The position numbers and the translations under genes were made by a program. 64,000 nucleotides of DNA from the NCBI GenBank assembly GCA_003389385.1, contig QQVM01000017.1, forward strand, positions 74,443 to 138,442, read 5' to 3'. The DNA is from Bacteroidota bacterium (lineage in GTDB: Bacteria; Bacteroidota; Bacteroidia; AKYH767-A; 2013-40CM-41-45). The notes beneath the pieces are model-generated. The model ran no database searches. It saw only the letters and a program-made list of their open reading frames with translations, and had not been told where the DNA came from. Below, in pieces: positions 19,334 through 29,346 of this stretch (positions within the stretch are counted from its first letter, which is position 1; every line of letters starts with the position of its first letter).

Positions 19334-20812
19334 TTACTCCCGTGGTTTTTCCGGATAATTGTGAAAGACCGGCATGTCAGTTTTGCCTTTCTTTTCCCTT
19401 ACACATGCGTTCACATCAGGCAAACTGAAATAAAAGGTGGCGCCTTCTCCCGGTTTTCCTTCAGCCCATACTGAACCATTGTGTTTTTCAATGATTCTTT
19501 TCACAATGCTGAGTCCTACACCGCTTCCTTCATAATCTTGATAATTATGCAAGCGGTTAAAAGTTGTGAACAGTTTGTTATAATATTTCATATTGAATCC
19601 GGTGCCGTTATCACGTACATAATAAACAATTTTATCTCCGTCAATGTAGCTTCCAGATTCAATTACCGGATTGTTCACTTTTGAGCTGTACTTGAATGCG
19701 TTTGAAATATAATTTTTCCAGACCTGTCTGATCAGCTTTTCATCGCAAAAGGCATGAGGAATTTCTTTGATTCTGATTTCAACAGTTCTTGAGGGATCAG
19801 TTATTGTAAATTCAAGTATCGTGTCGTTAAGTATTTGTTTCATGTCCACCTTTTCTTTGGACAAAGTGGCTTTGCCTGAACGGGAAAATTCAAGCAGATC
19901 GTCAATGAGCACCTGTATTCGGTCGATGTTTGACCTGATTTTGTAAAATAGCTCCAGGGCATCTTTCGGAATTTCTTTGCTGTAATCCTCATTAATCATG
20001 TCAATTAAGGAGTTGATTCCGCGCAATGGAGATTTCAGGTCATGTGTAACAGTATGGTTAAATGCTTCCAGTTCCTGGTTAGTGAATTCCAGCTCCTTGA
20101 GCTTTTCAGATAATTTGTTGTTCAGTTCAATGATTGAATTTTCCTGAATTTTTCTTTGACTGATATCCCTCACTACGCAATGAAAACCGCTCACATAATC
20201 ATCCTGCTGAATGAGAATCACTGTTTGTTCAACCCATCTTTTTTCTCCTGACTTATCTATAATCTGCAATTCGCTGATTGTTTCCGGAGTTCTGGAACGG
20301 AACTGGTTCAGATAGAATTTACTTACTTCATCCATCATATCCGGAACAATCAGACACGTAAAGTGTTTTCCAACAAGTTCTTCAGGAGTGTAACCATAAG
20401 CTTTGTAAATCCTTTGATTGAAATATGTGAAATTACCTTTGTAGTCGGCTGAATACACTACATCACCAGCTTCTTCAATCAAGTTCTTGTATTTGTTATT
20501 GAGTTTTTCCCTGATGATGTTGTTTATCTCTATGTTTTTTCTTCCTAATCGATGTCCGAAAAGTGCCATAACTATTGGAGCCAGAAATATTATCCAGAGT
20601 GCTGGATAATGATTCAGAATTGTATCAGTCTGTTCAATAAAACTGAATCCTCTGCCTACAGTATTATAATGGATTGAAAATGCTACAATAGGAAAGATCA
20701 AGCCAATTAAAAAACCTGCTGACCCATAGATTTTATCCTGGCCCAGGTGTTTTAGCGCAGACCTGATTTTTACATTGATGAGATGCATAAAATGCAAAAT
20801 TCGCTGATTCAA
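19334..20812 (-). CDS. Membrane PAS-domain sensor histidine kinase
   Basis: The protein has 492 residues. Two N-terminal membrane helices (about 30-49 and 70-88) flank a short periplasmic loop. A PAS domain follows (about 105-222, with YGYTPEELVGK and the C-terminal VVRDISQRK), then a coiled coil, and a HisKA domain with the phospho-acceptor His257 in THDLKSPLRG. The ATPase domain shows the N box (NYISNAFKYSS), the G1 box (DNGTGFN) and the G2 box (GSGVGLSIVKRI). It has no receiver domain, so it must signal to separate proteins. The two response regulators and the NarL-type regulator next to it are natural candidates. It points towards the nuo operon end and is probably transcribed from its own promoter. 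The PAS ligand is unknown. Confidence 0.93.
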   Translation of the reverse strand: MNQRILHFMHLINVKIRSALKHLGQDKIYGSAGFLIGLIFPIVAFSIHYNTVGRGFSFIEQTDTILNHYPALWIIFLAPIVMALFGHRLGRKNIEINNIIREKLNNKYKNLIEEAGDVVYSADYKGNFTYFNQRIYKAYGYTPEELVGKHFTCLIVPDMMDEVSKFYLNQFRSRTPETISELQIIDKSGEKRWVEQTVILIQQDDYVSGFHCVVRDISQRKIQENSIIELNNKLSEKLKELEFTNQELEAFNHTVTHDLKSPLRGINSLIDMINEDYSKEIPKDALELFYKIRSNIDRIQVLIDDLLEFSRSGKATLSKEKVDMKQILNDTILEFTITDPSRTVEIRIKEIPHAFCDEKLIRQVWKNYISNAFKYSSKVNNPVIESGSYIDGDKIVYYVRDNGTGFNMKYYNKLFTTFNRLHNYQDYEGSGVGLSIVKRIIEKHNGSVWAEGKPGEGATFYFSLPDVNACVREKKGKTDMPVFHNYPEKPRE

Positions 20813-20944
20813 GACTGGATGAATCCAATCTTGTTCACAAAGTTGAAACGATTCCGGTAATGATGGGTTTTTATAAATTTTCAGAATTCTTACAGAAAAA
20901 GAAGCCTGAAAGATTAAAAGCCTGATGTGGAAAAAGGATTAATT

Positions 20945-21023
20945 TGAAAAAATCAGGCCGGAATTCCAAATATGCCGGGTCGCAGCGGCATTTTTTAATA
21001 CTTGAAATTTCAATCCGGCCTGA
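20945..21023 (-). terminator. Nested hairpin terminator after a response regulator gene
   Basis: TCAGGCCGGA (20953-20962) and TCCGGCCTGA (21014-21023) form a perfect 10-bp outer stem. Inside it, ATGCCG (20972-20977) and CGGCAT (20986-20991) form a second stem. On the minus strand the outer stem is followed by TTTTTTC, which fits termination of the gene ending at 21070. On the plus strand the inner stem is followed by TTTTT, so the structure could act in both directions. Confidence 0.6.
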
Positions 21024-21069
21024 AATTCTAAATAATCAGCTCATCAGATATATGTTATTTTCCGTTTTC

Positions 21070-21483
21070 TTACGGTTTTTGCATAGAGTTAATTTGCAAT
21101 GCAACCATTATTTCCTTTGTGATAGGTTTTAAAAATGAACTGAATATTGAAGGATTGGATTTGATTTTTACCAGATCAATTTCACTGAAGTCGTTTGAGA
21201 CAAGAACAATTTTAACGTGAAACAAACCCGGATTGATCTTTTTGTATTCCTCAATAAAATCAAAGCCGTTAATTGCAGGCATATTCTTATCAACAATTAT
21301 TAATTCTGGCATATTTCCCCTGATATGTGTATTGTATAAATACAGTAAAGCTTGTTCAGGATGGTCAAACGTCTTGATTTCTTCCACAGCACAGATTGTT
21401 TTCACAGCTTTCCTGCTGATTAACCTATCTAATTCACAATCATCTACAATTAATACCTTGCAGGGATCACTTTGACAACTCAT
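21070..21483 (-). CDS. Single-domain response regulator (CheY-like)
   Basis: The 137-residue protein is a bare receiver domain. The acidic pair is Asp14-Asp15 (VLIVDDCE), the phospho-acceptor is Asp65 in IIVDKNMP, a Ser replaces the usual Thr in LVSND, and the conserved Lys is in FLKPI. With no output domain, it must act by protein contact or as a phosphorelay intermediate. It lies between the histidine kinase and a second receiver gene on the same strand, but each gap holds structure (a terminator below, a spacer of 89 nt above), so these may be separate transcripts. Confidence 0.92.
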   Translation of the reverse strand: MSCQSDPCKVLIVDDCELDRLISRKAVKTICAVEEIKTFDHPEQALLYLYNTHIRGNMPELIIVDKNMPAINGFDFIEEYKKINPGLFHVKIVLVSNDFSEIDLVKIKSNPSIFSSFLKPITKEIMVALQINSMQKP

Positions 21484-21572
21484 TTTACTTAATAATAATC
21501 TGTTTACGGATGCAGGAATTGCAAGCCGGCTCCAACATCATTGATAGCAATTTATTTTTATACAAGTATATT

Positions 21573-21938
21573 TTACTTTTTATTTTGCAATGAACGAATC
21601 GCAGCTTCTACAGATCCGAACTCAGTTGATTTGTCGAAAAAATAATTTGCTCCCAACTTGGTGCATGCAATTCTGTATTGTTCTTCAGGATAGTTCGTCA
21701 GTACGATCACACTTGTTTGCTGATCATTCTTCCGGATATTCTTTAAGACCTCAATTCCGTTCATGATTGGAATTTTTATATCCAGAAGAATGAGATCTGG
21801 TTTGAGGAAATTGTACAAGGTAAGAGCTTCCTCTCCATTCTTTGCATGCGCAATGGAGTTAACAAATTCCATTGAGTTAAGAAATGAATGAATTCGCCTG
21901 ACAATGATGGCGCTGTCGTCGATAACCAGAATTTTCAT
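21573..21938 (-). CDS. Single-domain response regulator (CheY-like)
   Basis: The 121-residue protein is a receiver domain only. Acidic residues Asp7-Asp8 (LVIDDS), phospho-acceptor Asp53 (LLDIKIP), Thr in IVLTNYPEE and Lys in FFDKSTE are visible. Its sequence is closer to the receiver of NarL-type regulators than to the neighbouring 137-residue protein, so the two are not recent duplicates. An exact -7 promoter element lies 41-48 nt before its ATG, so it probably has its own promoter. Partner kinase and output are unknown; the adjacent PAS kinase is the obvious candidate. Confidence 0.92.
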   Translation of the reverse strand: MKILVIDDSAIIVRRIHSFLNSMEFVNSIAHAKNGEEALTLYNFLKPDLILLDIKIPIMNGIEVLKNIRKNDQQTSVIVLTNYPEEQYRIACTKLGANYFFDKSTEFGSVEAAIRSLQNKK

Positions 21939-21978
21939 TTTTCCGCAGTATAGATTGCTGATGCAGTCTGCAATCAGT

Positions 21979-21986
21979 CAAAGATA
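21979..21986 (-). promoter_or_regulatory. -7 promoter element (TATCTTTG) for the 121-aa response regulator
   Basis: The minus strand reads TATCTTTG, an exact TAnnTTTG match. It predicts a leader of about 34 nt before the ATG at 21938. No good -33 element is visible at the expected spacing, so an activator may be needed. Two palindromes lie 57-92 nt further upstream. Confidence 0.45.
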
Positions 21987-22042
21987 CATGCATAAATCAA
22001 TCAGGCTTGTAGGATATCATCGGTAGATTAGAATAAAAGCTT

Positions 22043-22071
22043 AACTATAGTTGTAGTATTATATACTACAA
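22043..22071. promoter_or_regulatory. Overlapping palindromes between two response regulator genes
   Basis: AACTATAGTT (22043-22052) is a perfect 10-nt palindrome. It overlaps by two bases a perfect inverted repeat, TTGTAGTAT (22051-22059) and ATACTACAA (22063-22071), with a 3-nt spacer. The pair lies upstream of the 121-aa response regulator gene and just after the NarL-type gene. No T tract follows on either strand, which argues for a protein-binding operator more than a terminator. Confidence 0.45.
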
Positions 22072-22090
22072 AGGAGGTCGGAAAATTAAT

Positions 22091-22720
22091 CTAAGGTATC
22101 AGATTATTTGAAAGTGCATACTGGGTAAGTTCCGCATTAGAACTCATTTTAAGTTTGCCCAATATCCTGGATTTATAAGTTGAAACGGTGTTAATGCTGA
22201 TAGACAATTCATCAGCGATATCAGACAGTGATTTACCGGACGCAATCATTTTCAGTACGAGAAATTCCCTGTCTGAAAGGGCATCATGCGGATATTCCGT
22301 GGTGCCTGAACTTACTGCTTCCAGAAGATATTGAGCCATTTCATGGCTGATGTATTTTTTTCCTTTAAGAATAGTTCGCACTGCTTTAATCAATTCTGCC
22401 GGTGCAGAATCTTTTGTGATGTATCCTGATGCACCCGACTTCAAGACTCTCATAGCATATTGATTCTCGGGATAAATGCTAAGCACAAGAATAGGGCTGA
22501 GTGATGACTGCGCTTTTAGGTCTTTGATTGCATCAATCCCGTTTTTACCCGGCATTGATATGTCGGTGATAATGATGTCCCAGTTGCGTTCATGAATGTT
22601 TCTGAGTAATTCAAAGCCGTCAGATACTTCTGAGCAATATGCATCCGGAAATTCTTCTTTAAGGATTTGCACCAATCCTCTTCTCACAATTGAATGATCG
22701 TCTGCGATCAGGATATTCAT
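22091..22720 (-). CDS. NarL/FixJ-type response regulator
   Basis: The protein has 209 residues. The receiver domain (about 1-120) has Asp7-Asp8, phospho-acceptor Asp53 (IITDISMP), and Lys in YITKDSAP. A LuxR-type helix-turn-helix follows (about 142-205), with LSDREFLVLKMIASGKS and the recognition region ISINTVSTYKSRI. Family members are phosphorylation-dependent transcription factors that bind short inverted repeats. It is divergent from the nos cluster and shares a 225-nt intergenic region with it, so it may control nos or respiratory genes; that is inferred from position only. Confidence 0.95.
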   Translation of the reverse strand: MNILIADDHSIVRRGLVQILKEEFPDAYCSEVSDGFELLRNIHERNWDIIITDISMPGKNGIDAIKDLKAQSSLSPILVLSIYPENQYAMRVLKSGASGYITKDSAPAELIKAVRTILKGKKYISHEMAQYLLEAVSSGTTEYPHDALSDREFLVLKMIASGKSLSDIADELSISINTVSTYKSRILGKLKMSSNAELTQYALSNNLIP

Positions 22721-22805
22721 AATTGTTTCGGATTGATATTTATTCGAATAGACTGAAACTTATTTGAGTTTGGAAGAAATAAAAGCTTCAATTTTTCAAT
22801 CAGGA

Positions 22806-22829
22806 TTTTATCCGTCCGTGGACGTAAAA
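22806..22829. promoter_or_regulatory. Interrupted palindrome in the divergent narL-type / nos intergenic region
   Basis: CGTCC (22813-22817) and GGACG (22820-22824) form a perfect inverted repeat with a 2-nt centre. It is flanked by TTTTA (22806-22810) and TAAAA (22825-22829). The symmetric layout between two divergent genes suggests an operator. The binding protein is unknown; the adjacent NarL-type regulator is one candidate. Confidence 0.4.
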
Positions 22830-22883
22830 TTAAAATTTTTCAGTCTTTTTAAGAGTCTTGTATGATAAAAATCATGCTCAATC

Positions 22884-22927
22884 TTGAGTGTGATCATTAT
22901 GCGTCCTTCACGACAGGCTTATTTTTG
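22884..22927 (+). promoter_or_regulatory. FNR/CRP-like box and -7 element of the nos cluster
   Basis: TTGAGTGTGATCAT (22884-22897) matches eight of ten fixed positions of the FNR-type consensus TTGAT-N4-ATCAA. TATTTTTG (22920-22927) is an exact TAnnTTTG -7 element. If transcription starts about 5 nt after the -7 element, the box is centred near -41.5, the usual class II activator position. No -33 TTG is present at the normal spacing, as expected for an activator-dependent promoter. The perfect palindrome TTTTGATCAAAA (22924-22935) overlaps the -7 element and start region. Confidence 0.5.
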
Positions 22928-22945
22928 ATCAAAATAAACCACGAC

Positions 22946-23452
22946 ATGTATAAAATGACGAAAATTCTGCAATTAATATGGAAACGCTTGTTTTTTGCAG
23001 TTGCTCTGTTTTCACTTCTTATGGTATACGCTTGTAGTTCAGGTGATCGCACTGAGTCGGATAATTCCGGCAGTGGCAATCTGATGAAAGAAGCGGAAGA
23101 AATGGTAGATGACGGTAAAGGTGTCGGTCCGGTGAAAAACCTTGAGCTATCAGCTGAGCTCGATCAAAAACTTGTAGCTGAAGGTGAAAGCATTTTTGAA
23201 AGTAAATGTACAGCCTGTCATAAGTTCTCAGATGAAAGATATGTAGGCCCCGGATTAAAAGGGGTCACAGTAAAAAGGAAGCCGGAGTGGATAATGAATA
23301 TGATTCTGAATCCACAGGAAATGACTCAAAAAGATCCAACCGCAAAGGAGCTGCTTGCACAATACATGACAGTGATGACAAACCAAAACATCACAGAACC
23401 TGAAGCAAGAAGCCTTCTTGAATATCTGAGGAAGATGGATAAAAGCAATTAA
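22946..23452 (+). CDS. Cytochrome c lipoprotein of the nos cluster
   Basis: This is a small c-type cytochrome with one haem site, CTACH, at about residue 90 from this start. A hydrophobic N-terminal segment ends in a lipobox (VYAC), so it is probably a lipoprotein anchored at the periplasmic face. Candidate Met axial ligands are in the segment YMTVMTNQN. Directly upstream of nosZ, it is the likely electron donor or relay to nitrous oxide reductase, as in other clade II clusters; that role is inferred. The frame is open upstream to an ATG at 22862, but the predicted promoter at 22920 favours the ATG at 22946 (MYKMTK) or 22955. Confidence 0.9.
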   Translation: MYKMTKILQLIWKRLFFAVALFSLLMVYACSSGDRTESDNSGSGNLMKEAEEMVDDGKGVGPVKNLELSAELDQKLVAEGESIFESKCTACHKFSDERYVGPGLKGVTVKRKPEWIMNMILNPQEMTQKDPTAKELLAQYMTVMTNQNITEPEARSLLEYLRKMDKSN

Positions 23453-23515: not shown

Positions 23516-25477
23516 ATGAAAAATTTAAAAAGTATAATACTATTCAGCACCCTGCTTATCGGAGTTGCAGCAATGATTTCATGCGGCGGCGGAGGAAAGA
23601 AGGCTCATATCGGTGCAAGTGATGCGGCTTCCAAAGTGTATGTTGCTCCGGGCCAGTGGGATGAATTCTATTCATTCCTTTCTGGTGGATTCAGCGGACA
23701 AGTAAGCGTATACGGATTACCTTCAGGCCGACTTTTAAAGGTAATTCCGGTTTTTGCCGTGAATGCCGAAAATGGCTGGGGATTTTCTGAAGAGAGTAAG
23801 CCAATGCTCCAAAGCACCCATGGGTTTGTTCCGTGGGATGATTCACATCACCCTGAACTTTCAATGACTAACGGAAAAACTGACGGGCGCTGGCTTTTCA
23901 TCAATTCCAACAACACTCCCAGGATTGCAAGAATAAACCTGAAAACATTCAAAACAGAAGAGATTCTGGAAATTCCAAACAGCGGTGGAAATCACAGTTC
24001 TCCTTTTGCCACTGAGAACACAGAATATGTTGTGGCAGGAACAAGGTTCAGTGTGCCAATTCTTGGTAATCAGGATGTGCCAATTAACAGCTATAAGGAA
24101 AACTTCAAGGGCACAATCACTTTTGTAAAAGTAGGTGACGACATCGGCGGAATGGATGTTGCATTTCAGATTCTTACGCCAGGTTTTGACTGGGATCTGG
24201 CCCGAGCAGGAAGAAATGCTTCAACAGGATGGTTCTTTTTCTCATGTTACAACAGCGAACAGGCTCACACACTTCTTGAAGCAAACGCTTCACAGAATGA
24301 CAAGGATTTCATAGCAGCGATAAACTGGAGGCTGGCTGAAAAATATGTTGCAGAAGGAAAAGCAAAGCAGGTTCCTTCACAATATTATCACAATGTTTGG
24401 AGTCATGAAACTCATTCAGCCACTTCAACAATTAAAAGAAACACTCTGATGCTTGATCCGAAAGATTGTCCAGGGCTGATGTACCTGATGCCTTGTCCTA
24501 AGTCTCCTCACGGATCAGACGTTGATCCTTCAGGTGAATACATTGTCGGAGGAGGAAAGCTTGCTACAGTAATTCCTGTATTTTCATTCAGCAAGATGCA
24601 GAAAGCCATTGAAGCCAAAGACTTTATAGGAGAAGTAGACGGCATTCCTATCCTGAAGTATGAATCAGTTCTTGCAGGTGAAGTGCAAAAACCTGGACTT
24701 GGCCCATTGCACACTGAGTTCGACGGTAAGGGTTTTGCTTACACATCAATGTTTGTGTCTTCTGAAGTTGTAAAATGGAAGCTTGGCACCTGGGAAGTGG
24801 TCGACCGCATGCCAACATATTATTCAATCGGTCACCTTTCAATCCCAGGCGGCGGATCTGTTGAGCCAGACGGAAAGTATCTGCTGGCAATGAACAAAAT
24901 TACTAAAGACAGATATCTGCCTACTGGTCCAGAACTTGCACAAAGCGCACAGCTGATAGATATCAGTGGTGAGAAAATGAAGATGCTTAGCGATTTCCCG
25001 ACAGTCGGAGAGCCTCACTATGCACAGGGAATCAAAGCTGATATGATTTCTAAAGATCAGGTTAGGGTATTCAGGATTGAGGATAACAAGCATCCTTATG
25101 TTACCAAAACCGAAAAAGAAAGCAGAGTTGAGCGTAAAGGCAAAACCGTTCATGTGTACATGACCAGCATTCGTTCTCACTTTGCGCCTGACAACATTGA
25201 AGGAATTCAGCAAGGTGATACGGTTTACTTCCATGTTACGAATCTTGAGCAAGACTGGGATACACCTCACGGTTTCGCGATCAAAGGTTCCACTAATGCA
25301 GAATTGCTGATCATGCCTGGTGAAACATCCACATTGAAATTCTTTGCTAAAGATGTGGGAATATATCCGTTCTACTGCACGGACTTTTGTTCTGCACTGC
25401 ATCAGGAAATGCAAGGATACCTTAGAGTCTCGCCCGCCGGCTCTAGTGTACCAATCAGTTATTCGACGGGCAAATAA
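23516..25477 (+). CDS. nosZ: Nitrous oxide reductase, clade II (Sec-dependent)
   Basis: NosZ reduces N2O to N2 in the periplasm. Its 653 residues begin with a Sec-type signal with no twin Arg and a lipobox-like end (MISC, Cys23), typical of clade II. The seven-bladed propeller carries the CuZ histidines in DDSHHPE (His111, 112), SGGNHSS (His160), SPHGSDVDPSG, GPLHTEFDG, SIGHLS and GEPHYAQG. The C-terminal cupredoxin domain holds the CuA site: His in DTPHGFAIKG and the set CTDFCSALHQEM (Cys621, Cys625, His629, Met632). All expected ligands appear present, so the enzyme should be active. It follows the cytochrome c gene by 63 nt and is followed by two strong hairpins before the accessory genes. 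Confidence 0.98.
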   Translation: MKNLKSIILFSTLLIGVAAMISCGGGGKKAHIGASDAASKVYVAPGQWDEFYSFLSGGFSGQVSVYGLPSGRLLKVIPVFAVNAENGWGFSEESKPMLQSTHGFVPWDDSHHPELSMTNGKTDGRWLFINSNNTPRIARINLKTFKTEEILEIPNSGGNHSSPFATENTEYVVAGTRFSVPILGNQDVPINSYKENFKGTITFVKVGDDIGGMDVAFQILTPGFDWDLARAGRNASTGWFFFSCYNSEQAHTLLEANASQNDKDFIAAINWRLAEKYVAEGKAKQVPSQYYHNVWSHETHSATSTIKRNTLMLDPKDCPGLMYLMPCPKSPHGSDVDPSGEYIVGGGKLATVIPVFSFSKMQKAIEAKDFIGEVDGIPILKYESVLAGEVQKPGLGPLHTEFDGKGFAYTSMFVSSEVVKWKLGTWEVVDRMPTYYSIGHLSIPGGGSVEPDGKYLLAMNKITKDRYLPTGPELAQSAQLIDISGEKMKMLSDFPTVGEPHYAQGIKADMISKDQVRVFRIEDNKHPYVTKTEKESRVERKGKTVHVYMTSIRSHFAPDNIEGIQQGDTVYFHVTNLEQDWDTPHGFAIKGSTNAELLIMPGETSTLKFFAKDVGIYPFYCTDFCSALHQEMQGYLRVSPAGSSVPISYSTGK

Positions 25478-25535: not shown

Positions 25536-25580
25536 ATGACCGCTGTCAGATTAAATTCTGATACCGGTCATTTTCTTTCC
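25536..25580 (+). terminator. Second hairpin with T tract after nosZ
   Basis: The arms at 25536-25550 and 25557-25571 pair over 15 positions with one mismatch and one G-U pair, around a 6-nt loop. They are followed by TTTCTTTCC. It looks like an intrinsic terminator, placed between nosZ and the accessory nos genes, so readthrough is probably partial. Confidence 0.65.
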
Positions 25581-25593
25581 TACGTAATATCAC

Positions 25594-25601
25594 TAATCTT
25601 G
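25594..25601 (+). promoter_or_regulatory. Possible -7 element for the nos accessory genes
   Basis: TAATCTTG differs from TAnnTTTG at one base and lies 23 nt before the next start codon, downstream of both hairpins. No clear -33 element is seen. It would allow expression of the accessory genes independent of nosZ. Confidence 0.25.
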
Positions 25602-25624: not shown

Positions 25625-26191
25625 ATGAAAAAAAGTTCAGCACTGATAATAGCCGCAGTATCTCTGGCCATGATAGCAAGTTTGTTCCTGCCGTTATGGA
25701 CAATAGACTTACAGGCTCCTCAATACCCGGAAGGATTGAGAATGCACATTTGGCTGACTAAACTTTCAGGTGATGTGAGTACGATCAGTGGCCTTAATCA
25801 TTACATCGGGATGAAACCAATCAGTGCTGAAATGTTCCCTGAATTCGGTTACATGCACTACATTGTAATGATTCTGATAGGCACAGGTATAATCACATCA
25901 TTGATCAGTAAAAGATGGGTATTCGGAGTTTGGTTTACTGTGTTCTTTCTGACAGCATTAATAGGGATGTATGATTTCTGGCTGTGGGAGTATGATTACG
26001 GACATAATCTTGATCCCAAAGCACCTATAAAGATTCCGGGAATGTCATATCAGCCTCCTTTGATCGGCTGCAAGGAACTGCTTAACTTCTATGCATGTTC
26101 CTTTCCTGCCAGCGGTGGCTGGGTGATAATTTCTTCAGGAACGATTTCATTTTTAGTCTTCGTCAGGGAGTTTTTTCTAAACAAAAAATAA
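25625..26191 (+). CDS. Conserved-looking membrane protein of the nos cluster, function unknown (188 aa)
   Basis: The 188-residue protein has about four transmembrane helices: one at the N-terminus (about 5-25), two in the middle (about 78-95 and 102-118), and one at the C-terminus (about 163-182). Between helices 1 and 2 is a loop of about 50 residues, predicted to be periplasmic, with aromatic residues and YIGMKP. A second loop holds YDYGHNLDPKAP, IPGMSYQPPLIG and CSFPASGG, with Met, His and Cys residues that could bind copper. It lies between nosZ and nosL, so a role in NosZ maturation or electron supply is likely but unproven. Clade II clusters elsewhere contain a membrane gene called nosB near nosZ; I cannot tell whether this is the same family. 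Confidence 0.85.
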   Translation: MKKSSALIIAAVSLAMIASLFLPLWTIDLQAPQYPEGLRMHIWLTKLSGDVSTISGLNHYIGMKPISAEMFPEFGYMHYIVMILIGTGIITSLISKRWVFGVWFTVFFLTALIGMYDFWLWEYDYGHNLDPKAPIKIPGMSYQPPLIGCKELLNFYACSFPASGGWVIISSGTISFLVFVREFFLNKK

Positions 26192-26200
26192 TTATATACA

Positions 26201-26635
26201 ATGAAACCAATAGTCATCACAATTTTATTTTCTTTCTTACTTATCTCATGTAAAAAAGAGATAGACACAATAAAGTATGGACAGGATTTATGCGTGGAAT
26301 GTAAAATGACCATCATGGATAACAAATACGGAGCCGCCTTGATGTCGAATAAAGGTAAGACTTATAAATTTGATTCTGCTGAATGCATGGCGCATTACAT
26401 TAATGAGGGAAAGATCCCGGAAGCTGAAGTTTTTGTCATGAAGGTGAGTGACCATGCCAGTCCGGGAACAATGATTGACGCAGCTTCGGCTCATTTCCTT
26501 CACAGCCAGTTTCTGCCAAGTCCGATGGGAGCTTATCTGACCGCCTTAAGCTCCGAAGAATCATTGAAATCTTATATTTCAAGATTCAACGGTGAAGCCT
26601 GGACATGGCAGGATGCAAGAAATAATCTGAAATAA
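26201..26635 (+). CDS. nosL: NosL copper chaperone lipoprotein
   Basis: NosL is an outer- or inner-membrane lipoprotein that delivers Cu(I) for assembly of the NosZ CuZ site. The 144-residue protein has a signal peptide with a lipobox (LISC), then the family motif DLCVECKMTI, which supplies Cys and Met ligands. AECMAHYI and DAASAHFLHS regions further along fit the family. It starts 9 nt after the membrane protein gene, and its stop is directly followed by the nosD start. Confidence 0.93.
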   Translation: MKPIVITILFSFLLISCKKEIDTIKYGQDLCVECKMTIMDNKYGAALMSNKGKTYKFDSAECMAHYINEGKIPEAEVFVMKVSDHASPGTMIDAASAHFLHSQFLPSPMGAYLTALSSEESLKSYISRFNGEAWTWQDARNNLK

Positions 26636-27886
26636 ATGCTGAATCCCGCTTACATAATTATTCTGTTCGCTCTGCTGATTTCTTTTTCATCGAATGCAGT
26701 TAAGATTCATGTTGGCGGCTCTGATGGCTTGGCAAGCATCAGAGAAGCGGTTATGAAAGCGAAGGCAGGAGATACTGTATTGGTAAGGGCAGGAGTATAC
26801 ATGGAAGGAAGTATCGTCCTCAATAAGGGTATTGTATTATTAGCCGAGAAAGGAGTGGAGATTGACGCTCAGGGAAAAGAGCCTTTGATAGTTATTCGAG
26901 CTGATAAGTCTGTCGTTAAAGGATTCACACTTAAAAATTCAGGCTACAGTGACATCGCCGAAATTGCAGGCATTCGTCTGGAAAATGTAAAAGCCTGCAG
27001 AGTAGAGGATAATTACCTCTACAATAATTTCTTCGGAATTTATCTTTCCAATTCAAGCTATTGTATTTTGCGAAATAATGTAATTCATGGATTCGCAAGA
27101 ACTGAAACTTCTTCCGGTAACGGAATTCACCTATGGAAAAGCGATCATAACACTGTATTGGGAAATAAAATCAAAGGACATCGTGACGGTATTTATTTTG
27201 AATTTGTGAAGAACAGTTCAATAATCAACAATATCAGCGAAGACAATCTGCGATATGGCTTGCATTTTATGTTCTCCGACAATGATGTTTATCGTTACAA
27301 TATATTCCGAAGGAATGGTTCCGGCGTGGCGGTGATGTATACCAGAGATGTAGAAATGTCATTCAACAGATTCGAGCACAACTGGGGAAGCGCGTCTTAT
27401 GGTTTGCTTCTTAAGGATATTTCAAAGAGCCAAATCAGGAACAATATGTTTTTACGCAATACCACAGGCTTATATATGGAGGGTTCACACAGTACTATAA
27501 TTGAGCAGAACGATTTTCGTGAAAACGGTTGGGCATTGAGAATACTGGGAGATTGCTACAATGACACAATTACTTCGAATAATTTCATTGGAAATTCTTT
27601 TGATGTGGCAACTAATGCAGTGAGGAATATGAATTATTTTTATTCCAATTATTGGGACAAGTACACAGGCTATGACCTGAATAAGGATGGAACAGGCGAT
27701 ATTAGTTATTATCCGGTAAGTTTGTATTCTAAAATCACCGAAGAAAATCCTTACGCACTTATGATGCTGCACAGTTTCTTCATTGATCTGCTGAATCAAA
27801 CTGAAAAGCTGCTTCCGTCAATTACTCCGGACCAGTTTCTTGACGCATTGCCGAAAATGAAAAAACTGATGCATGATACATATTAG
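26636..27886 (+). CDS. nosD: NosD periplasmic copper-processing protein
   Basis: NosD is a periplasmic right-handed beta-helix protein needed with NosF and NosY for maturation of the copper centres of NosZ. The 416-residue protein has a signal peptide (about 1-22) and repeated short beta-helix turns (CASH/parallel beta-helix repeats) such as NYLYNNFFGIYLSNSSYCIL, NVIHGFA, GDIY-like turns and FNRFEHNW. Near the end is the NYWDKYTGYDLNKDGTGD motif typical of NosD. The ATG follows directly after the nosL stop, and the end overlaps nosF by 14 nt. Confidence 0.95.
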   Translation: MLNPAYIIILFALLISFSSNAVKIHVGGSDGLASIREAVMKAKAGDTVLVRAGVYMEGSIVLNKGIVLLAEKGVEIDAQGKEPLIVIRADKSVVKGFTLKNSGYSDIAEIAGIRLENVKACRVEDNYLYNNFFGIYLSNSSYCILRNNVIHGFARTETSSGNGIHLWKSDHNTVLGNKIKGHRDGIYFEFVKNSSIINNISEDNLRYGLHFMFSDNDVYRYNIFRRNGSGVAVMYTRDVEMSFNRFEHNWGSASYGLLLKDISKSQIRNNMFLRNTTGLYMEGSHSTIIEQNDFRENGWALRILGDCYNDTITSNNFIGNSFDVATNAVRNMNYFYSNYWDKYTGYDLNKDGTGDISYYPVSLYSKITEENPYALMMLHSFFIDLLNQTEKLLPSITPDQFLDALPKMKKLMHDTY

Positions 27887-28586
27887 CGGACTAAATAAAA
27901 GTTTTGGAAAGCAAACAGTGCTTAATGATATCAGCCTGGAATTTTCCGGAGGCAAGGTGATTTGCCTGATTGGGCCAAACGGAAGCGGCAAGACAACACT
28001 CATCAAGTGTTTACTAGGACTCGTTATTCCAGATCGTGGTATTGTGAAAATGGATACTCGCGACATGCTCAAAGACTGGACGTGCAGAAATGCTGTAGGG
28101 TACATGCCACAGATTCTGCGTTTTCCTGAGCAAATCCGGATGAAGAGCGTGTTTGAGCTGATTAAAGATTTCCGTTCAGATTTTCAAAACTACGATGAAG
28201 AGCTTATTGAATCGCTTGGTTTGAATTTAATAATGCAAAAGAAGATGGGAACTTTGTCAGGAGGAACAAGGCAAAAAGTAAGTGCTGCATTGGCCTTTTT
28301 GTTTCGTCCGAGTGTACTCGTTCTGGATGAGCCCACCAGCGGCCTTGATCCCGTGGCATCTGAAAAGTTAAAAAATAAAATCAGGAAAGAAAGGCAGAGA
28401 GGAGCATTGACTTTCATCACCACTCATAACATGAGTGAAGTAGAGGAGTTGGCGGACAATGTAGTATTCATTGTAGACGGTAAAATCCGTTTTTACAAAT
28501 CTGTAGACACTATAATGAATGAGACAGGAGAAATGAAGATAGGTAGAGGTCTTGCGAAATTGATGGAGGCAAACGGTTATGCTTAA
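27873..28586 (+). CDS. nosF: NosF ABC transporter ATP-binding protein
   Basis: NosF is the ATPase of the NosDFY complex, which powers a step in NosZ copper-site assembly. In 237 residues the Walker A motif is GPNGSGKTT (about 34-42), the signature is LSGGTRQKVS (about 128), the Walker B is VLVLDEPTSGLDP (about 147), and the switch His is in THNMSEVE. It overlaps nosD at the start and nosY at the end, so the three are translationally coupled. Confidence 0.95.
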   Translation: MIHISGLNKSFGKQTVLNDISLEFSGGKVICLIGPNGSGKTTLIKCLLGLVIPDRGIVKMDTRDMLKDWTCRNAVGYMPQILRFPEQIRMKSVFELIKDFRSDFQNYDEELIESLGLNLIMQKKMGTLSGGTRQKVSAALAFLFRPSVLVLDEPTSGLDPVASEKLKNKIRKERQRGALTFITTHNMSEVEELADNVVFIVDGKIRFYKSVDTIMNETGEMKIGRGLAKLMEANGYA

Positions 28587-29346
28587 AGTATTTTCATACG
28601 TTTTTCAAGAGGTGTTCAGAAACAGGATGCTTGTCTTTTATTCGCTGTTCCTGTTTCTGCTTTCCAGTGGTTTGTTTTATTTCGGAGCAGACAGCTCAAA
28701 AGCCGTGGTCAGCTTGCTGCATGTAGTGCTGTTGGTAGTTCCTCTTTTGTGCATTGTATTTGCAACTATTCACTACTACAATTCGCTCGAGTTTATCGAA
28801 TTGTTGCTAGCTCAACCAGTTCCAAGAAGACGGATTTTCACCGGTGAATACCTCGGTTTAAGTGTGGCAATGACATTAGCATTGCTGACAGGGCTTGGAT
28901 TACCGGTTCTTTTCTGGGATACTTCGGCGGCCTCCTTGTTTCTGTTGGCTATGGGAGTTATGCTTACTTTTATTTTTACCTCTATAGCTTTTTTCGCTTC
29001 AGTAAGCAGTACCGACAAATCAAAAGGTATTGGAACGGCGCTGATAATCTGGTTTTATTATGCAGTGATTTTCGATGGACTTGTATTACTCGTTCTTCAT
29101 TACTTCAGCGATTATCCTCTTGAAAAGGTCGTACTTGTGCTTACGACACTGAATCCGATTGACCTGGCAAGAGTTTTTGTATTGCTCAAACTGGATACAT
29201 CCGCATTAATGGGATATACAGGATCACTTTTTCAAAGTTTTTTCGGAACAATTTGGGGAATTCTGTTTTCCCTGTTTTTCCTTCTGCTTTGGCTGGTGAT
29301 ACCTCTCTGGCTTTCAATCAGAATATTTACAAGAAAAGACTTATAA
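28579..29346 (+). CDS. nosY: NosY ABC transporter permease
   Basis: NosY is the membrane subunit of NosDFY, a permease of the ABC-2 type. Its 255 residues contain six hydrophobic helices, with the conserved VPRRRIFTGEYLGLSVAM-like loop between helices 2 and 3 and a C-terminal helix rich in Leu and Trp. It overlaps nosF by 8 nt and is the last gene of the nos cluster. The convergent OmpA-like gene ends 27 nt after it. nosR and nosX, found with clade I nosZ, are absent, as usual for clade II clusters. Confidence 0.93.
   Translation: MLKVFSYVFQEVFRNRMLVFYSLFLFLLSSGLFYFGADSSKAVVSLLHVVLLVVPLLCIVFATIHYYNSLEFIELLLAQPVPRRRIFTGEYLGLSVAMTLALLTGLGLPVLFWDTSAASLFLLAMGVMLTFIFTSIAFFASVSSTDKSKGIGTALIIWFYYAVIFDGLVLLVLHYFSDYPLEKVVLVLTTLNPIDLARVFVLLKLDTSALMGYTGSLFQSFFGTIWGILFSLFFLLLWLVIPLWLSIRIFTRKDL

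Follow-up and report, generated by a model that had tools for sequence, protein, structure and literature searches.

Control of nitrous oxide reduction by regulators of the Crp/Fnr family is already known, and the nearest experimentally supported case is the nosR promoter of Bradyrhizobium diazoefficiens, which carries a FixK2 site at −40.5 (PMC5582078). FixK2 of this organism is part of a FixLJ–FixK2 cascade (PMC6710368). Work by Rodionov and colleagues placed DNR boxes upstream of proteobacterial nosZ genes and assigned a different motif to HcpR2 of Bacteroides (PMC1274295). For the clade II nosZ of Nitrosophilus labii, upstream Crp/Fnr sites have been predicted (PMC11539149). A published nos promoter or regulator from the Bacteroidota, or a Crp/Fnr regulon of Bacteroidota nos or cbb3 oxidase genes, was not found in the open literature searched.

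The locus considered here lies in a 64-kb window, the whole stretch of Bacteroidota DNA that was analysed. It resembles the FixK2/nosR system in having a Crp/Fnr-family box near −41 of nos, a regulator class shared with low-oxygen respiration, and a PAS kinase putatively at the top. The Bradyrhizobium promoter has a single box, sigma-70, and separate FixJ and FixK proteins, whereas here there is a 22-bp tandem, a TAnnTTTG element, and a candidate regulator whose single chain contains both a receiver and a Crp domain. Like the DNR regulon of Pseudomonas and β-proteobacteria (PMC1274295), in which Crp/Fnr-family boxes precede nosZ and other denitrification genes, the present system places such boxes before nos; but the DNR regulon has the consensus CTTGATnnnnATCAAG and NO sensing, and the boxes here follow (A/C)TGAY-N4-RTCA(T) and accompany an oxygen-limitation gene set. 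HcpR2 of Bacteroides and Porphyromonas is likewise a Crp/Fnr-family regulator acting in Bacteroidota, yet its motif, GTAACnnnnGTTAC, and its mostly hcp-only regulon are unlike those found here (PMC1274295). The Nitrosophilus labii sites are similar in being of Crp/Fnr type and proposed for a clade II nosZ; two mismatches to TTGA-N6-TCAA were allowed for them, and the available part of the paper reports no fixed tandem or −7 geometry. What is new at the present locus is the tandem geometry, its TAnnTTTG partner, and the receiver-Crp candidate.

Promoter architecture upstream of the nos cluster

The nos cluster is preceded by an intergenic region (22721–22957) that contains, in order, ATGATAAAAATCAT, TTGAGTGTGATCAT, and TATTTTTG, with a cytochrome gene following at 22958. 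The last of these elements (22920–22927, forward strand) is an exact TAnnTTTG, the −7 element of Bacteroidota sigma-A. Because TAnnTTTG spans −12 to −5 relative to mapped flavobacterial start sites (PMC9723704), transcription is predicted to start at 22932 on the forward strand. The proximal Crp/Fnr-type box TTGAGTGTGATCAT (22884–22897, forward strand), with an exact TGA-N6-TCA core, is thereby centred at −41.5, in agreement with the position given in the sequence-only reading. It matches 8 of the 10 fixed bases of the FNR consensus TTGATnnnnATCAA; 22 nt separate its end from TATTTTTG, and no TTG occurs in the interval between them (22898–22919). These features, and a perfect palindrome over the −7 element, are all present as had been described. 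The earlier account was of a single box, however, and although the proximal box is real, the conserved unit is a pair: the distal box ATGATAAAAATCAT (22862–22875, forward strand), missing from that account, is an exact palindrome located exactly 22 bp upstream, with a predicted centre at −63.5.

Conservation of this arrangement was assessed in nosZ loci gathered from the order and from a species-genome collection. The 300 nt preceding the cytochrome start, with gene starts set by rule, were taken from loci in which a cytochrome gene precedes nosZ, which gave 90 distinct regions. In an unbiased search of every 3+3 dyad with gaps of 0 to 12, compared with dinucleotide shuffles, TGA-N6-TCA is the top dyad (74 of 90 regions, 6.8 expected). 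TCA-N10-TGA, the link that joins two boxes, occurs in 39 regions against 7.6 expected, and TAC-N2-TTG, representing the −7 element, in 33 against 7.1. Since these dyads were found without prior assumption, the whole architecture of box, box, and −7 element emerges unassumed. The spacing is equally sharp. A box-to-box distance of 22 bp is seen in 25 of the 90 regions, and every other distance in at most two; measured from the core, the proximal box stands 23 or 24 nt from TAnnTTTG (29 regions) and the distal box 45 or 46 nt from it (26 regions). Gaps of 10–59 nt are otherwise almost empty, save four cases at 35. Among cultured relatives, Flavisolibacter ginsengisoli DSM 18119 (L043) shares this promoter type.

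At class II promoters, the −33 element is expected to be absent where an activator replaces it. The upstream core element is weak or absent here, as expected of class II Crp/Fnr promoters, and among 37 aligned cases TTTG comes directly after the box in 4. Among 109 boxes, the base preceding TGA is A in 55, C in 29, T in 17, and G in 8, so that these boxes depart from the strict FNR box TTGAT-N4-ATCAA in its first T and outer A. The designation of the site as an FNR-type box thus holds at the level of the Crp/Fnr family but not at that of the consensus. Conservation of the box in relatives had been chosen beforehand as the test that might overturn the proposal; the box is conserved, and the proposal stands. 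Many nos promoters of other lineages carry just one box or a variant form, for example TTATGAttgcacGCATAA. The nos promoters of loci L026, L027, and L028 have one box but 35 nt instead of 23 to TAnnTTTG; either a different −7 element is used there or activation differs.

The first gene of the cluster (22958–23452, forward strand) encodes a c-type cytochrome lipoprotein (Pfam Cytochrom_C, E 7.9e-9) and is found upstream of nosZ in nearly all relatives. It is followed by nosZ, encoding nitrous oxide reductase (23516–25477, forward strand; Pfam nos_propeller, E 2.6e-35), and by genes for a 188-aa membrane protein, nosL, nosD, a nosF-like ABC ATPase, and a nosY-like permease (25625–29346, forward strand), a region with Pfam matches to NosL, NosD, ABC_tran, and ABC2_membrane_2. 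A second tandem, TGACCGCTGTCA-N10-TGATACCGGTCA (25537–25570, forward strand), lies inside the cluster, and 23 nt past it stands TAATCTTG (25594–25601, forward strand), a TAnnTTTG with one mismatch. Placed as it is just after nosZ and ahead of the following gene, this assembly looks like a separate promoter of the same design for the accessory nos genes. As a general feature the internal tandem was rejected, having been found among 99 loci only in this genome and in G002. Two boxes within the nosZ coding sequence, at 23839 and 24954, are taken as chance. Genes for a PAS-type sensor, a LuxR-type response regulator, and a pair of single-domain response regulators occupy the opposite strand directly upstream of nos (19334–22720 of the window); G010 has a relative of the LuxR-type gene (58% identity), likewise upstream of nos.

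Recurrence of the boxes in this genome and across Bacteroidia

This genome was examined by pattern searches and in selected stretches. The pattern ATGAY-N4-RTCAT occurs at 36 places in it, compared with 9 for the reversed control, and 7 of the 36 fall within C3:204–235 kb, one hundredth of the genome. In this neighbourhood, tandems with the 22-bp spacing stand before usp (220317/220339) and ccoNO (240506/240528), where 23 nt separate them from TAGGTTTG and TAGTTTTG respectively, and before ric with its operon (221306/221328) and an fnr-like gene (232827/232849). The B12-dependent nrdJ (228719) and queD-hemN (234208) each have a single box upstream. Many of the same genes, with their boxes, are found again in genomes G010, G002, and G007, and in part in G009, G004, and G006.

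The tandem extends well beyond these relatives. Across 42 genomes of the order, its forward matches number about 119 and control matches 1; in the class it was found in 98 of 197 Bacteroidia genomes, where the reversed control gave 1 match, the MAGs among the genomes being possibly incomplete. In distant genomes the tandems flank the receiver-Crp gene and homologues of usp and hsp20, and in G217 also ccoI and ccoNO, often with 23–24 nt to TAnnTTTG.

Several further occurrences deserve mention. A tandem at L155:9807–9841 is spaced by 23 bp, with TAGTTTTG 23 nt beyond it; the ORF that follows, 108 aa in length, has no assigned function. A tyrosine phenol-lyase/tryptophanase-like pair lies between the ric–cytochrome pair and a COX1-like gene (L153:2526–5313); it belongs to an operon predicted to be controlled by the box and is conserved in several relatives. 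In this genome single boxes at L157:3718, L159:3949, and L167:3693 also precede genes resembling those of oxygen-using enzymes (named by eye): a tryptophan 2,3-dioxygenase-like gene, a homogentisate dioxygenase/fumarylacetoacetase-like pair, and a paaA-like gene. Because boxes lie before such genes, repression of some genes is possible, and the regulator that reads the boxes may act on these as a repressor.

Candidate regulators and competing explanations

Two candidate readers of the box are encoded 15 kb apart. One is a receiver-Crp fusion protein of 352 aa (C3:217275–218339 of this genome, G000), in which the phospho-acceptor Asp and the recognition helix GTATESVIRTLSDFK are nearly invariant and whose gene adjoins that of a PAS histidine kinase. 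The kinase PAS domain matches FixL (E 8.5e-12) and the haem PAS of DosP, its best match being another PAS and the PAS type a common one. A His aligns with the haem-ligand position and is kept in all 10 of the orthologues covering it; the domain may bind haem. A search with the N-terminal membrane part of the kinase gave no useful match. The other candidate is an Fnr homologue of 247 aa (C3:232915–233658) with the recognition helix KEQVSK. Seven cNMP-binding proteins are encoded in this genome.

Across the 197 Bacteroidia genomes, with regulator presence or absence set by E-value thresholds, the tandem occurs in 70 of 96 genomes with the receiver-Crp gene and 28 of 101 without it (p 2e-10), and in 31 of 38 genomes with the Fnr homologue and 67 of 159 without it (p 1e-5), although the genomes are related and these p-values therefore overstate independence. 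The mean tandem count is 4.35 where both genes are present, 1.76 with receiver-Crp only, 1.42 with the Fnr homologue only, and 0.35 with neither. This class-wide association favours receiver-Crp, yet leaves both regulators as candidates. Within the order, receiver-Crp is present in 40 of 42 genomes, so that its presence or absence there cannot decide between the two. G001, of the same family, has neither regulator gene and zero tandems; G038 and G041 have both regulators and no tandem. The simplest reading is that both proteins would use the box, with receiver-Crp the more general user.

In several Chitinophagaceae and related bacteria, the nos cytochrome gene has as its neighbour a gene for a small Crp/Fnr protein of about 200 aa, mostly on the opposite strand (upstream of nos in L051, L053, L075, L088, L092, L099, L116, and L117). 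Several of these loci carry the box variant TTATGAttgcacGCATAA, and the proteins may constitute a regulator specific to nos that recognizes an altered half-site.

Taken alone, the proximal box is not significant, since 81 sites in the 64-kb window reach 8 of 10 bases of the FNR consensus; exact TAnnTTTG occurs there 53 times on the two strands. A chance match of the single box and its distance from the −7 element would be in keeping with these numbers, but the position and the tandem are kept across distant relatives, and on this ground chance was ruled out as an explanation of box and spacing, to near certainty. Indeed, TTGAGTGTGATCAT is the sole 8/10 box in the window at the right distance from TAnnTTTG, where a rough estimate gives about 0.2 such pairs by chance, and the only two exact tandem pairs in the 64 kb (22863–22896 and 25537–25570) are both inside the nos cluster. 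It is the conservation in relatives, together with the second exact box 22 bp upstream, that makes the site significant. The palindrome over the −7 element, TTTTGATCAAAA (22923–22934), fares differently. It is perfect over 12 bp and occurs once in the window, and the sequence-only reading had offered it as a repressor site; but it is absent from all the other nos upstream regions compared, same genus included, and its core TTGATCAA is present seven times in the window. A repressor operator controlling nos is thus highly improbable, and the palindrome is probably incidental.

The identity of the reader admits other views. The nos boxes might be read mainly by the Fnr homologue, with oxygen sensed via an iron–sulphur cluster and receiver-Crp acting on targets elsewhere. 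The N-terminal and central cysteines of the homologue align with those of FNR structures and are conserved in most same-family orthologues (that of G006 is without one of them); its gene lies inside the box-rich island of C3 with a tandem of its own upstream; and within the order, 16 of 23 genomes with nosZ encode it but 4 of 19 without nosZ. This view is nevertheless doubtful, given that the tandem design persists in genomes without the homologue at the threshold used, including G009, where it is kept around receiver-Crp, ccoI, and ccoNO, and that the class-wide association is weaker than that of receiver-Crp. Activation of nos by an NO-sensing, DNR/NnrR-like regulator seems unlikely. DNR boxes of the TTGATnnnnATCAA form do precede nosZ in Proteobacteria (PMC1274295), small Crp/Fnr genes adjoin nos in some of the Chitinophagaceae loci, and ric, an NO-damage repair gene, carries the same tandem. 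Against this, ccoNO, nrdJ, hemN, and usp share the boxes and fit oxygen limitation better, and no DNR-type gene adjoins nos in this genome.

Proposed mechanism and implications

The sequence features with their fixed geometry, the conservation, the regulon-like distribution, and the statistical link to both regulator genes are direct results; that the boxes are bound and activate nos, by which protein, and on what signal are deduced from these comparisons. On this basis, class II activation of nos by a Crp/Fnr-type regulator has good support, and a low-oxygen signal is likely. Because the same boxes stand before a high-affinity oxidase and other low-oxygen genes, an oxygen or redox signal is favoured over NO. 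Of the earlier proposal that a Crp/Fnr-type regulator sensing low oxygen or NO governs nos, the class II assignment is thus strongly supported by conservation, whereas the NO alternative has lost ground. The preferred reading, to which a probability of roughly 0.75 is assigned, is that nos has a class II promoter served by a tandem-bound Crp/Fnr-family activator within a low-oxygen regulon, with receiver-Crp the most likely reader and the Fnr homologue probably sharing that role.

Under this preferred reading, low oxygen would cause the PAS histidine kinase to phosphorylate the adjacent receiver-Crp protein. Two activator dimers would occupy the boxes at −63.5 and −41.5, two helical turns apart on one face of the DNA, and RNA polymerase with Bacteroidota sigma-A would be recruited to TAnnTTTG without a −33 motif. 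The proximal dimer would touch the polymerase in class II fashion, and the distal dimer would contribute occupancy or a further contact. The Fnr homologue probably shares the boxes of receiver-Crp, and the nos promoter would belong to one regulon with the genes of the high-affinity cbb3 oxidase and with related genes for low-oxygen conditions. Whether the scheme extends to an oxygen-limitation system of the whole class is an evenly balanced matter. In such a system, a PAS kinase would act on a single-chain receiver-Crp, FixJ and FixK merged, and two dimers on 22-bp tandems (−63.5/−41.5) before TAnnTTTG would control N2O reduction, cbb3 oxidase, universal stress proteins, and small heat-shock proteins.

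Many Bacteroidota have clade II nosZ and can consume N2O, a greenhouse gas. The nos promoter described here appears to be a clear example of how class II activation works at the unusual type of promoter found in Bacteroidota, and its signature, two TGA-N6-TCA elements 22 bp apart and then 23 or 24 nt to TAnnTTTG, is searchable. With it, the regulon can be predicted from sequence in roughly half of the sampled Bacteroidia genomes, and its analysis points to two candidate regulator genes. The recurrence of the signature before low-oxygen genes throughout the class points to a shared, little-studied oxygen-limitation switch over N2O consumption.
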